This document shows, piece after piece, positions 46,000 through 49,421 of a stretch of 64,000 bases of DNA. A program made the translations under genes and the position numbers. Below the pieces are notes generated by a model, which was not told the DNA's origin, did not search any database, and saw only the letters and a program-made list of their open reading frames with translations. The stretch spans positions 1,240,001 to 1,304,000 of the forward strand of contig NZ_CP104264.1 of assembly GCF_025244845.1 (NCBI RefSeq). Direction: 5' to 3'. This DNA comes from Arthrobacter sp. zg-Y1171 (GTDB lineage Bacteria > Actinomycetota > Actinomycetes > Actinomycetales > Micrococcaceae). Each line of letters begins with the position of its first letter. Within the stretch, counting starts at the first letter, position 1.

Positions 46000-46758
46000 A
46001 TGCATACAAAACGCCTCCCACATGCCCTTGCCACTACATCGATCTGCAGCCTTGCGGCAGCTTTCGCCCTCGTCGGTTCCCTGGCCGCCGCCCCGACGGC
46101 TGCAGCACAGGGGCCGGCGGCCTCCGTTCGGGTCAACGCCGCCGCGCCAATGGAATCAGGTGTACTGCTGGCCGTTTCCGACCCTACGCCCACGTGCCGG
46201 ATGACGCCGACGCCGATGCCGACCCCGACCGGGACGCCGACGCCGACCCCGACTCCGACCGGGACGCCGACGCCCACGGTCACTCCGACTGGTACCCCAA
46301 CACCGACGGGAACTCCAATCCCGACGGTCACTCCGACGGGTACCCCGACGTCGACCCCGACGGTTACCCCAACACCGACGGGAACCCCGTCGCCGAGCGA
46401 CTCTCCGTCCCCGAGCGATACCACGTCGCCGAGCGACTCTCCGTCCCCGAGCGACTCTCCGTCCCCGAGCGATACCCCGTCGCCGAGCGACTCTCCCTCC
46501 CCGAGCGACACTCCGACGGGCACCCCGTCAGCTTCATCGGGCACAACGGGAATGGGTGCCGAGGTAGCCATGGTCCAGGTCGTGTCCATCACTCCGCCGT
46601 GCATGGGTTCCGCAGGAGCGTCCCGTGATGTGAGGCCCGATCTGGCCGGCACCGGTGCTTCCGGCACATCGCTCGCCCTGCTCGGAGCCGGAGGCCTTCT
46701 TGTTGCGGGTGCTGCCGGCGTGTACTTCACGCGTCGCCGCGGAGTCCAGGAATCGTAG
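46000..46758 (+). CDS. Secreted Pro/Thr/Ser-repeat protein with sortase anchor
   Basis: 252 residues. Signal peptide 1-37 (hydrophobic core, cleavage after AAA). Residues 68 to about 180 are low-complexity: first PTPT(G/P) units, then [12 protein letters not shown] units, repeated in DNA too. The C-terminus has LAGTG (215-219), a hydrophobic helix (about 225-242) and FTRRR, which is a sortase signal of the LAxTG type used by class E sortases of high-GC actinobacteria. The stalk would extend a small globular part (about 190-212) from the wall. No sortase is in this window. Function unknown: adhesion or spacer are possibilities. Confidence 0.85.
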
Positions 46759-46790
46759 GCATAGCCACCCCCAAGAGCCCGGTATGCGAA

Positions 46791-46827
46791 CGGCAGCCGG
46801 ACCCCATCCCGGGTCCGGCTGCTGTTT
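46791..46827 (+). terminator. Terminator after the surface protein
   Basis: Stem GGCAGCCGGACCC / GGGTCCGGCTGCT with loop CATCCC and TTTAT tail. The erm leader region starts just after. Confidence 0.85.
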
Positions 46828-46891
46828 ATCCATGCGCCGAACATACTGCTCCCTCTGGAACCGTCGAGCCGGTCGCCGTATCCTCCTTCCT

Positions 46892-46963
46892 GTGACTTCC
46901 ACGTGTAGGACTTCCTCCCGCGCATTCGACTGCGCGTTCTTCGTGCGCGACCGCCGCCGCTGA
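46892..46963 (+). CDS. Candidate Erm leader peptide
   Basis: A 23-codon frame from GTG 46892 ending CAFFVRDRRR-stop at 46963, 112 bases before the erm start. It has no good ribosome site (CTTCCT upstream), and a longer frame from ATG 46834 is possible. The end RDRRR contains the Arg-x-Arg type motif known to stall macrolide-bound ribosomes in ErmDL/ErmXL-class leaders. The context and the hairpin overlapping its stop support a regulatory role. Not proven to be translated. Confidence 0.4.
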   Translation: MTSTCRTSSRAFDCAFFVRDRRR

Positions 46964-46973
46964 CGGCGGGCGG
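46951..46973 (+). promoter_or_regulatory. Hairpin overlapping leader stop codon (possible attenuator)
   Basis: CCGCCGCCG - CTGA - CGGCGGGCGG pairs with one bulge and brackets the TGA of the leader frame. It could respond to ribosome position. A second hairpin with TTCCGG / CCGGAA arms lies further down (about 47000-47023). Confidence 0.4.
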
Positions 46974-47075
46974 CGCCTCCACTCGCGGTACCGCGCGCCG
47001 TCGTTCCGGATGCCAGGCACCCGGAAGGCGTCGTCTGCCTGAAGGGTGCTCCATGTCGCGGCGATTGGAGCGCTC

Positions 47076-47888
47076 GTGGGAGCGAGAAGCCAGTATGGCG
47101 GCCGGGAGGAGCTCGGCCAGAATTTCCTGATCCACCAACCCACCATCCGTTTGGTCCTTGGCCTGGTCCGTTCCTCGGGCGGCGGGAGCATCCTCGAACT
47201 CGGTGCCGGCGACGGCGCCCTGACCCGTCCGCTTGCAGCCCTCGGCCGCGACCTGCTGGCCATTGACTTGGATTCAGGCTGCGTAGGACGACTGCAACGG
47301 CGTCTGCCCACAGTCCGGGTACTGCAGGCAGATGCCCTGGCCGTGCCCTTCGACCGCCCGGTGATTGTGGGCAATATTCCCTTTCACCTGACTACCCCGA
47401 TCCTGCGCCGCCTGCTGGCAACGGGTACCTGGACCCATGCGGTGCTGCTGACCCAGTGGGAGGTTGCCCGCAAGCGGGCCGGAGTGGGTGGGGGAACCCT
47501 GCTGACGGCCCAGGCCTCTCCCTGGTTCGACTTCGATCTTCGCGGCCGGGTGCCCGCAGCCGGGTTCCGCCCCCGGCCCGCCGTCGACGGCGGCATCCTT
47601 AGTGTCCGGCGGCGCCCGGTCCCGCTGCTGGACCCGCAGGACCGGACACCCTACGAGCGGTTTGTGCGCGCCATCTACAACGGACCCGGAGCGGGGCTGG
47701 GGGAGATCCTGGGCCGGTATCTTGGGTCGGCACGGACCGCACGGACCGCATTGGCCGCTGCGGGAGTTCCGCTGCAGGCACTGCCCAGGGATGCAGCAGC
47801 CGCGCAGTGGCCGCGCTTGTGGCAGGCAGCCGTGGACCAGCCCAGCGCCCGGGCAGGCAACCATCCCCGCCAGCGGGCCGGCAGCTGA
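47076..47888 (+). CDS. erm: Erm(X)-like 23S rRNA (adenine-N6)-methyltransferase
   Basis: 270 residues. GTG 47076 has GGAG at 6 bases; GTG 47046 is alternative. Conserved GGREELGQNFLIHQ, SAM-binding ILELGAGDGALTRPLA, catalytic NIPFHL and QWEVARKRAGVGGGTLLTAQ closely follow the Erm(X)/actinobacterial Erm pattern; ASPWF and FRPRPAVDGGIL are also typical. Family: dimethylates A2058 of 23S rRNA and confers macrolide-lincosamide-streptogramin B resistance. Its target base is at about 4773 in the window's 23S gene. Chromosomal erm genes of soil actinobacteria are often intrinsic. No transposase flanks it. A C-terminal Arg/Gly/Pro tail is present. Confidence 0.92.
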   Translation: MGARSQYGGREELGQNFLIHQPTIRLVLGLVRSSGGGSILELGAGDGALTRPLAALGRDLLAIDLDSGCVGRLQRRLPTVRVLQADALAVPFDRPVIVGNIPFHLTTPILRRLLATGTWTHAVLLTQWEVARKRAGVGGGTLLTAQASPWFDFDLRGRVPAAGFRPRPAVDGGILSVRRRPVPLLDPQDRTPYERFVRAIYNGPGAGLGEILGRYLGSARTARTALAAAGVPLQALPRDAAAAQWPRLWQAAVDQPSARAGNHPRQRAGS

Positions 47889-47976
47889 GCCAGGCCAGCC
47901 GGGGCGCATGCATCGCGGCCGGCCAGTGCGCTTCGGATTCGGCAAGGGCGGTAATCGGCGGTCCTGTTACGGCGCG

Positions 47977-48004
47977 TTGACGCCCTCCCGCACCTGATTA
48001 CTAC
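47977..48004 (+). promoter_or_regulatory. Candidate garA promoter
   Basis: TTGACG (47977-47982) and TACTAC (47999-48004) with 16-base spacing, in the 275-base gap between erm and garA. The 5' UTR would be about 150 bases and includes a GTCAGCC-N9-GGCTGAT hairpin (about 48110-48133). Confidence 0.4.
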
Positions 48005-48163
48005 CTCCTGCGCGGAGAAGCCGTAAGCAGTACTTGTTAATCAGTGCCACAGCGGGCCTGTAACGGGTAGGCTGATACAGCAGGTAAGGCAGAAACAGTC
48101 ATCGGAACCGGGTCAGCCAGATATTTTGGCTGATCAGTTTTCTTTTTGGGGAGGAAATTGCAC

Positions 48164-48634
48164 ATGGCGGGCGAGCAGTACAGCGCCGAACGAGCGGGCA
48201 ACCGACAGGCGCCCGGCACGGAAGACACCACATCCATCAGTCTTCCCCCGATGTCCGATTCCACATCGGTTGAGCCCAAGCTGACCCCGGACGAGCGAGC
48301 CGCCGTCGCGGCCCTCCCTGCGCGCTCAGCCCTGCTGATTGCCCACAGCGGTCCGAACGCCGGTGCCCGCTTCCTGCTGGACCAGGACGTCACCACTGCC
48401 GGCCGGCACCCCAACGCAGACGTTTTCCTCGATGACGTCACTGTTTCGCGCAAGCATGTTGAGTTCCGCCGTACCCCCGAGGGGTTCCGCGTGGTGGATT
48501 CCATGAGCCTGAACGGCACGTACGTCAACCATGACCGGGTCGACAGTGTGCTGCTGCGTACCGGGAGCGAAGTGCAGATCGGTAAGTTCCGACTCACTTT
48601 TTACGCTGCCCGCCCCGCAACTGCCGGAAACTAG
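48164..48634 (+). CDS. garA: FHA-domain regulator GarA/OdhI
   Basis: 156 residues; ATG after a strong GGGGAGGAAATTGC. N-terminal TTS site (DTTSISLPP, Thr22/Thr23) is the kinase phosphorylation motif; the C-terminal FHA domain has AGRHPNAD, SRKHVEF and LNGTYVN. In relatives, unphosphorylated GarA/OdhI inhibits 2-oxoglutarate dehydrogenase and modulates glutamate dehydrogenase, and PknB-type kinases reverse this. Thus it sets TCA flux, relevant to pyc and prp genes here. A conserved neighbour order garA-ftsR-bfn-merR is seen. Confidence 0.92.
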   Translation: MAGEQYSAERAGNRQAPGTEDTTSISLPPMSDSTSVEPKLTPDERAAVAALPARSALLIAHSGPNAGARFLLDQDVTTAGRHPNADVFLDDVTVSRKHVEFRRTPEGFRVVDSMSLNGTYVNHDRVDSVLLRTGSEVQIGKFRLTFYAARPATAGN

Positions 48635-48671
48635 GCTCAGGCCCCGGCGTAGGGCAGATAAGGTAGTAGAT

Positions 48672-49421
48672 ATGTCAGCATCACAGTCCGTCAGGCGCAC
48701 CACCGGACCGGAACGGCTGCGTGGCAGGGTGCTGAATATCGGCGAGGTCCTGGGCGAGCTCAGCACGGACTTCCCTGCCATCAGCGCATCCAAGATCCGT
48801 TTCCTCGAGGAAAAAGGCCTGGTGACGCCGCAGCGCACGGCCGCCGGTTACCGCAAGTACAGTACGGCCGACGTCGAGCGTCTTCGGTTTGTGCTGGCAT
48901 TGCAGCGCGACCAGTACCTGCCGCTGAAGGTCATCAAGGATTATCTGGACGCGATTGACCGGGGAGAGCGGCCCGAGTCGCTTCCCGGCGGTATGTCCCT
49001 TGCCCCGCGCGTCGTATCGGACCAGCTGGCCGGAGAGCTTGCTGCCCGCGCCCATGCCCGCACCTTGACCTTCGAGGAGCTGGTTAAGGAATCCGGCGCG
49101 AGCACGGAATTGGTGCACAGCCTGGTCAGCTACGGACTGATCACCAGCGGCGATGAAAACTATGACGAGCATGCCCTGAAGGTGGCCAAGGCCTGTGTCC
49201 AGCTCGAGGCGCACGGCATCGAACCACGGCACCTGCGTCCCTTCCGGGCGGCAGCGGACCGCGAGCTCGGACTGGTTGAACGCGTGGTTGCCCCGGTCGC
49301 CTCCCGCAGGGACGTCGCCTCGAAGGCGCGCGCCGCTGAGACCGCCCGCGAGATCAGCGACCTGTGCCTGAGCCTGCACAGCGCTTTGGTGCATGGGCAA
49401 ATAGCGCGGATGGAGGGCTGA
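48672..49421 (+). CDS. ftsR: MerR-family regulator FtsR
   Basis: 249 residues from ATG 48672 with weak AAGG site. MerR-type DNA-binding domain (about 21-90: LNIGEVLGELSTDFPAISAS, IRFLEEKGLVTPQRT, GYRKYSTADVERLRF). The C-terminal ~150 residues lack the usual metal-binding Cys. The family member Cg1631 of Corynebacterium activates ftsZ transcription (known). It sits directly after garA as in that genome. Confidence 0.87.
   Translation: MSASQSVRRTTGPERLRGRVLNIGEVLGELSTDFPAISASKIRFLEEKGLVTPQRTAAGYRKYSTADVERLRFVLALQRDQYLPLKVIKDYLDAIDRGERPESLPGGMSLAPRVVSDQLAGELAARAHARTLTFEELVKESGASTELVHSLVSYGLITSGDENYDEHALKVAKACVQLEAHGIEPRHLRPFRAAADRELGLVERVVAPVASRRDVASKARAAETAREISDLCLSLHSALVHGQIARMEG

Follow-up and report, generated by a model that had tools for sequence, protein, structure and literature searches.

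Classical erm leaders of the Firmicutes are Shine-Dalgarno-led and serve as textbook drug sensors. Ribosomes bound by macrolides or ketolides can stall at a +x+ pattern (passages of PMC8298421), and the leader of erm(X) might act in erythromycin-inducible translational attenuation, as the accessible text of PMC3350403 puts it. A survey of upstream open reading frames (uORFs) of erm genes reported no universal pattern of conservation and, in the part of its text available to us, does not use the word leaderless (PMC11264731). For leaderless initiation in mycobacteria, a 5'-terminal ATG or GTG on the mRNA was both necessary and sufficient (section of PMC4633059). Here we analysed a stretch of 64,000 nucleotides from Arthrobacter sp. 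zg-Y1171 (the window, i.e., the whole 64-kb stretch of DNA), in which a 23-codon open reading frame (ORF) lies ahead of an erm gene; a sequence-only reading of this DNA had proposed a macrolide-sensing leader and attenuator there. We put at roughly 70% the probability that, at this locus, macrolides induce erm by translational attenuation, with the sensor peptide read from a leaderless mRNA. An erm leader is a known kind of attenuator, and it is likely the leaderless sensor peptide that is new; no description of leaderless erm leaders was found in the literature searched, which consisted of titles and abstract openings, with subscription papers mostly outside its coverage.

In the mechanism that we propose (coordinates in Table 1), RNA polymerase would start at the leader GTG, as its distance of 7 nt from the -10 box suggests, and ribosomes would load on the 5' end of the mRNA with no need for a Shine-Dalgarno sequence. 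A macrolide-bound ribosome would then stall at the conserved Arg19-Asp20-Arg21 motif, its P site occupied by Asp20 and its A site by Arg21, by analogy with ErmDL, and would thereby mask the first of six RNA segments, so that segment 2 would pair with segment 3, segment 4 would be released to take segment 5, and the Shine-Dalgarno in segment 6 would be freed. When drug is absent, the ribosome would reach the TGA and leave, after which 3:4 and then 5:6 would form and erm would be shut. We infer the direction of the switch and the stall; the two helix sets themselves are evident from conservation and covariation.

The loci compared were 31 from the genus and family plus 80 from GTDB genomes (the best 80 of 526 relatives); 20 of these 111 were dropped as near-duplicates (>90% identical ungapped) or for too short an upstream sequence, leaving 91 distinct erm upstream regions. 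A short ORF beginning with ATG or GTG 6–8 nt past TANNNT was found in 82 of the 91, one frame each. Shuffling the sequences 20 times gave 1.6 on average and never more than 4, the reverse strand gave 2, and four alternative sets of spacings gave 6, 9, 2 and 10 loci. Such an ORF carried [RK]x[RK] in its last seven residues in 72 of the 91 regions, whereas 20 dinucleotide shuffles gave a mean of 0.15 (never more than 1) and the reverse strand gave none. The unbiased measure of the motif is its presence within the last eight residues of 72 of the 82 placed leaders, since a set of 68 loci with a C-terminal R.R[RQ] was chosen on Arg and its Arg counts are circular. In this set of 68, the distance from the -10 box to the start codon was 6 nt in 17, 7 nt in 39 and 8 nt in 11, with a minor peak of 14 at 30 nt that would come from internal in-frame start codons. 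Five of the 68 had the C-terminal frame and no leaderless start, which left 63 assigned leaders, with a spacing of 7 in 38, 6 in 17 and 8 in 8, and starting with ATG (51) or GTG (12). The base preceding the start was C in 54 of the 63, and an SD-like (Shine-Dalgarno-like) 4-mer occurred in only 3, the window's leader not among them. Given the spacing of 6–8 nt and the scarcity of SD-like 4-mers, we predict that the leader is leaderless; most likely, to judge from these sequence features, its transcript begins at the start codon and the frame is translated as a leaderless ORF. The sequence-only reading had noted, correctly, that the leader start has no good ribosome site and had regarded this as its main weakness, an objection likely answered by the leaderless placing, which would explain the absence. 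A consensus scan revealed no sigma-70 promoter with a good -35.

Across both strands of the window, 10 short ORFs (8–30 residues) lay 6–8 nt past TANNNT, and two of these had RxR in the last six residues, namely the erm leader and one at 2485 beside a 23S rRNA gene. Arg-rich frames are common in GC-rich DNA and the folding energy of the leader is unexceptional (z -1.37), points that would suit a mere chance resemblance in front of a constitutively expressed erm. Set against them are the 72 regions where shuffled sequence gives 0.15, the covariation described below and the conservation of the element, which already refutes this explanation, and we give it next to no weight.

The leader frame was read as VTSTCRTSSRAFDCAFFVRDRRR, GTG to TGA, exactly as the earlier reading had placed it. 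In six Arthrobacter-genus loci (the window and L002-L006) the frame is open, the -10 box and the stop are kept, and the sole change in length is one whole codon; the frame starts with ATG in all but the window, where it starts with GTG, and the peptide ends in FFVRDRRR in five of the six and in FFVRNRRR in one. The random leader substitutions among relatives that the sequence-only reading had named as evidence against itself were thus not seen. In many other genera the leader ends in RDRRA; recurrent tails, among them TFRDRRA, YIRDRRA, AVRDRRA, QRDRRA, IRPRRS and IRLRRA, were found in Microbacterium, Leucobacter, Kocuria, Amycolatopsis, Frankia, Saccharomonospora, Isoptericola, Mumia, Corynebacterium and others. 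The residue between the two Args was mostly D, and N, E, L, P, V, I, Y and G also occurred.

The last codons of the leader overlap helix 1:2 and are CGC-rich, and pairing could yield some conservation of residues, as would be expected if conservation acted on RNA or DNA alone and the open frame simply arose from GC-rich repeats. We regard this as very unlikely: the conserved start context, the 6–8 nt spacing from the -10 box and the codon-length indel in the 5' half all lie outside the helices, and within R-x-R the central codon is variable but the CG dinucleotides on both sides of it are kept. A leader that is translated and coupled to erm might instead sense some other cue, such as a slowing of translation or the supply of arginine, or might act by reinitiation. 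The Arg-rich end (R-D-R-R-R) and the failure of equilibrium folding to support a stall-driven switch (see below) speak for such a cue; R-x-R is kept while x varies, matching the +x+ stall rule, different peptide sequences occupy the same place in other actinobacterial erm leaders, and the downstream gene encodes the methylase of the macrolide target, all of which make it an improbable explanation.

We next considered the RNA between the leader end and the erm start, using an alignment (A2) of 59 of the 63 loci with assigned leaders; L016, L025, L026 and L031 were excluded, their intergenic parts being judged too divergent. The hairpin over the leader stop and the second hairpin downstream of it, both proposed in the sequence-only reading, are present (segments 1 and 2, and the inner 3:4 hairpin; Table 1). 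Helix 1:2 was paired in 98.6% of alignment cells and almost invariant, 2:3 in 95.3%, 4:5 in 96.4% (with two-sided changes at 4 of its 8 pairs) and 5:6 in 96.0%. When the helices were grouped into an ON set (2:3 and 4:5) and an OFF set (1:2, 3:4 and 5:6), the ON helices were paired in 95.8% of cells, with two-sided changes at 6 pairs and in 49 cells, a number reached by none of 500 shuffles (mean 16.2 cells) and well above the at most 14 of slid versions. The OFF helices were paired in 91.0% of cells and had 52 cells with two-sided changes, again reached by none of 500 shuffles (mean 24.9; slid versions at most 16). RNAalifold, run unaided, returned 2:3 and 4:5 plus three pairs of 5:6. The strongest evidence came from strands 3, 4 and 5, which changed together, as GAG/CUC/GAG in 12 loci, CGG/CCG/CGG in 10, GGG/CCC/GGG in 9 and CCG/CGG/CCG in 1 (32 of the 59), and strands 3 and 5 share the same letters because both must pair with strand 4. 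Strand-4 columns 136 and 137 each changed at least 5 times by parsimony on the Erm protein tree, and in a comparison of own with swapped partners the own partner was the stronger in a fraction of 0.79 for 4:5, 0.75 for inner 3:4 and 0.52–0.57 for the other four helices. Overall, the ON and OFF helices form two conserved, competing sets, and strands 3, 4 and 5 covary as triplets. A single-column model of the outer 3:4 helix was rejected for its poor fit, as the register varies among loci.

The earlier reading had left translational and transcriptional attenuation side by side. We favour the former, because the erm Shine-Dalgarno lies within a conserved helix (segment 6) and the sole terminator-like match lies inside the leader ORF. 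A stalled ribosome could also act by preventing a leader terminator from halting RNA polymerase before erm; a leader with alternative hairpins would suit such transcription attenuation too, and actinobacterial terminators often have no clear U-tract. This is unlikely to be the case here, as a scan of 46700-48100 returned one terminator-like site (0.6 expected by chance), located at 46919-46936 within the leader ORF, and no hairpin with a U-run between leader and erm, and inspection of the 59-locus alignment by eye showed the start codon, and no U-run, after the last conserved helix.

A number of results weigh against translational attenuation of the kind proposed. Nineteen of the 91 upstream regions had no placed leader (L009, L021, L027, L039, L051, L073, L087, L097 and L105) or, in 10 further cases, a placed ORF lacking [RK]x[RK] in its last eight residues, and several of these 19 represent other leader types (IAVARPRTG..., AAMRPW.DAAASSI). 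In ErmDL, the +x+ motif counted less with erythromycin than with telithromycin (passages of PMC8298421). The predicted stalled ribosome, given the usual footprint length, would also overlie the first bases of segment 2. Helix 1:2 has no independent support because it hardly varies and overlaps codons, the OFF pairs with two-sided changes numbered 4, no more than in shuffles (4.4) or slid versions (up to 6), and the outer 3:4 helix was paired in only 72.4% of cells with an own-partner preference of 0.54. In the window, 6 of the 8 pairs of helix 4:5 form, and 27 of the 59 loci, the window included (CGG/CCG/AGG), have no perfect triplet match; furthermore, the three pairs over the Shine-Dalgarno in the RNAalifold consensus coexist with 4:5.

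Folding calculations belong on the same side. At equilibrium, the erm Shine-Dalgarno of the 59 loci was mostly paired at all 30 ribosome edges (mean probability of being unpaired at most 0.12); this probability exceeded 0.5 in no locus at any edge, and the best value for the window was 0.42. Mean probabilities of 4:5 and 5:6 were 0.44 and 0.58 with no ribosome, 0.43 and 0.57 with a ribosome stalled at RxR, and 0.46 and 0.53 with one at the stop, and helix 1:2 had a mean probability of 0.03. In the window, 4:5 and 5:6 stood at 0.76 and 0.23 with no ribosome and at 0.00 and 1.00 with a ribosome at RxR, and its folding energy was unexceptional (z -1.37 and -1.93). As a test of ribosome-driven switching, equilibrium folding was therefore negative, with a sign in the window opposite to that of the model, and the switch would have to be kinetic, taking place during transcription.

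Several individual loci departed from the common arrangement. In L009 (genome G018, a member of the genus), the promoter region abuts a shortened erm frame with the leader and attenuator absent, the -10 box is TGTCCT and the erm match covers residues 14-119 only; it looks like a decayed erm copy. The leader element lies ~1.3–1.4 kb upstream of erm in L039, where it is complete, and in L051, where it is partial; the sequence right before erm in both resembles what we take to be a transposase end, and there was probably an insertion between leader and erm. In L097, the predicted leaderless ATG is directly followed by TGA, such that the would-be leader is a start-stop pair. L008, L084 and L089 have eight-codon leaderless ORFs (MGTLIFAR) at the leader position, with no R-x-R and weak matches to the RNA model, and L017, L018, L024 and L028-L030 have other types of leaderless leader (IAVARPRTG...AAM.S; A.RPW.DAAA...), which are candidates for further sensor-peptide families. 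L053-L058, from a Homoserinimonas metagenome-assembled genome (MAG), a Microbacteriaceae MAG, Kocuria, an Intrasporangiaceae MAG, an Actinomycetota MAG and Propioniciclava, had identical erm match statistics and the identical leader MGNLICVFAATHTLAVRDRRA, and this identity across different taxa suggests recent horizontal transfer of leader and gene as one unit.

Plasmid-borne and named erm genes showed the same placing. Of 40 plasmid records with an erm match, 11 were retrieved and 9 examined for leaders, and all 9 had a leader-like ORF 6–7 nt past TANNNT. The leaders were MLISGTAFLRLRSNR for Erm(X), with a TATAAT box, MGSPSIAVTRFRRF for Erm(36), MGNTNIAVTEFRRF for Erm(46), MGITSVAVIRIRRF for Erm(55) and MG.MNAIFTTFGRLR... 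for both Erm(50) and Erm(51), from one plasmid record each; three unnamed erm genes (Dietzia, Kocuria and Rhodococcus plasmid records) had leaders ending in RDRRA. The Erm(46) leader has no R-x-R, and that of the Erm(50) and Erm(51) leaders is not at the peptide end, so R-x-R is not common to all leaders, while the leaderless placing, given the Erm(X), Erm(36), Erm(46), Erm(50), Erm(51) and Erm(55) records, reaches beyond the RDRRA family. One ermE promoter of Saccharopolyspora starts at the gene's own start codon. Leaderless initiation is probably the standard for erm sensor peptides of the Actinomycetota (the RDRRA family and these six named types), which would form a separate class of antibiotic sensor, with the RDRRA peptide coupled to a six-segment relay in which segment 4 is contested by two strands tending to the same sequence.

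A covariance model of the RDRRA-family element (R1) was run on 396 phylum genomes and 390 family genomes, with Infernal's stricter filters and 7 candidate stretches scored per genome. All hits with E <= 1e-4 lay directly before erm (3 in the phylum and 15 in the family set, the window's own in both). Of the 5 phylum hits, three are strong and lie ahead of erm, and the other two, which do not, are weak (E 2.2e-4 and 9.5e-3). Among the 20 family hits, 16 lie ahead of erm (all with E <= 1.2e-3) and the remaining 4, weaker at E >= 4e-3, lie elsewhere. Within the limits of these searches, R1 is an erm element and not a general leader. An erm match was found in 39 of 395 genomes of a nearly identical family set and in 9 of 29 genomes of the genus, and with 16 R1 hits ahead of erm in 390 genomes the RNA family was detected at fewer than half of the family's erm genomes. 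Rfam at its gathering threshold had 4 matches in the window, none over the leader region, and at E <= 1 there was one weak match, on the opposite strand (E 0.49).

Table 1. Predicted features of the erm leader region, in window coordinates.
Feature	Position	Strand	Remarks
Predicted -10 box TATCCT	46879..46884	+	Ends 7 nt ahead of leader GTG; spacing peak across 68 loci
Leader peptide ORF, GTG...TGA, VTSTCRTSSRAFDCAFFVRDRRR-stop, 23 codons	46892..46963	+	Predicted translation from leaderless mRNA
Arg-Asp-Arg-Arg-Arg codons, +x+ motif	46946..46960	+	Motif conserved; predicted macrolide stall with Asp20 in P site and Arg21 in A site, geometry from ErmDL (passages of PMC8298421)
RNA segment 1	46952..46960	+	Overlaps Arg21-Arg23 codons; CGCCG 46952-46956 pairs with CGGCG 46964-46968 around TGA
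RNA segment 2	46962..46970	+	From stop codon on; partner is segment 1 or segment 3
RNA segment 3 (CGCGCCGTC)	46994..47002	+	Complements segment 2 (ON); 5' side of 3:4 hairpin region (OFF)
Inner 3:4 hairpin, TCCGG 47005-47009 / CCGGA 47021-47025	47005..47025	+	86.1% of cells paired; 3 of 5 pairs with two-sided changes
RNA segment 4 (GCACCCGG)	47017..47024	+	Pairs with segment 3 side or segment 5
RNA segment 5 (AAGGGTGCTCCA)	47042..47053	+	Pairs with segment 4 or segment 6
RNA segment 6 (TGGAGCGC)	47066..47073	+	Holds erm Shine-Dalgarno GGAG 47067-47070
erm, 23S rRNA adenine-N6 methyltransferase gene	47076..47888	+	Start GTG 47076; frame end 47888

The genome that carries the window is a single contig of 3.42 Mb. 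The long erm ORF opens at 47046, and the start with a proper Shine-Dalgarno is the GTG listed in Table 1, exactly 112 bases past the leader stop, in agreement with the distance given earlier; a GGAG, GGAA, GAGG or AGGA site was found ahead of an in-frame erm start in all 63 loci with an assigned leader. The predicted protein passed the broad Erm model of NCBIfam (215.8 bits, cut-off 212) and none of the named Erm models in that database, and it was 43–48% identical to plasmid Erm(X), such that the sequence-only description of the gene as Erm(X)-like holds in a broad sense only. Downstream of erm, at 48146-49418, are an OdhI-like FHA protein (below the NCBIfam OdhI cut-off) and an FtsR regulator (above cut-off), from which we take the neighbours to be ordinary chromosomal genes. 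Upstream, at 46000-46758, is an ORF rich in TPTG/SPSPSD-type repeats with a C-terminal LAGTG-hydrophobic-RRR tail, which presumably resembles the sorting signal of a cell-wall anchored surface protein. Control of erm by WhiB7, as in mycobacteria, was considered and found to be unsupported: an RGRP-type AT-hook is the criterion for WhiB7, neither of the two Whib-domain proteins in the window's genome has one, and this genome holds no WhiB7 candidate.

If true, a leaderless actinobacterial class would explain why uORF searches and rules based on ribosome sites can miss such leaders, and it would include named resistance genes of human and environmental strains. It also poses the question of how a macrolide-bound ribosome that initiates at a bare mRNA 5' end stalls and signals. 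The -10 spacing rule offers a simple sequence-based annotation of such sensors, and the R1 model serves the RDRRA family.

Of the features that define ErmC-, ErmB- and ErmD-type systems, the window has a short upstream ORF, a +x+ motif (R-D-R) and two mutually exclusive foldings, one of which hides the erm Shine-Dalgarno, and its leader has no Shine-Dalgarno of its own. ErmC has four segments and a Shine-Dalgarno-led leader, unlike the six segments and leaderless leader of the window's predicted relay. ErmDL of Bacillus initiates at a conventional site, with its stall at codon 7, whereas the window motif occupies codons 19-21 of a leaderless ORF. The likeness to ErmDL lies in the Arg-x-Arg motif (Arg-Leu-Arg), at which the P site of the ribosome stalled on ErmDL holds x and its A site the second Arg (passages of PMC8298421), and the likeness to ErmCL/Erm(C) lies in leader stalling that exposes the methylase Shine-Dalgarno via an alternative mRNA structure (excerpt of PMC10219788, which gives ErmCL as its bacterial example). 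The leaderless cysteine-rich uORFs of mycobacteria are likewise short leaderless ORFs proposed as attenuators, although they are proposed to sense cysteine and, in the sections of PMC4633059 consulted, do not stand before a resistance gene. A further comparison is with ErmXL of Corynebacterium (plasmid pLEW279a, L138), whose leader end the sequence-only reading had described as similar. The peptides (MLISGTAFLRLRSNR vs VTSTCRTSSRAFDCAFFVRDRRR) and the intergenic RNAs are not otherwise alike, R1 had no match on L138 at E <= 0.01, and descent is not demonstrable; what the two leaders do share is R-x-R near the end, the AF..R.R pattern and the leaderless placing, with a perfect TATAAT 7 nt before the ATG in ErmXL.

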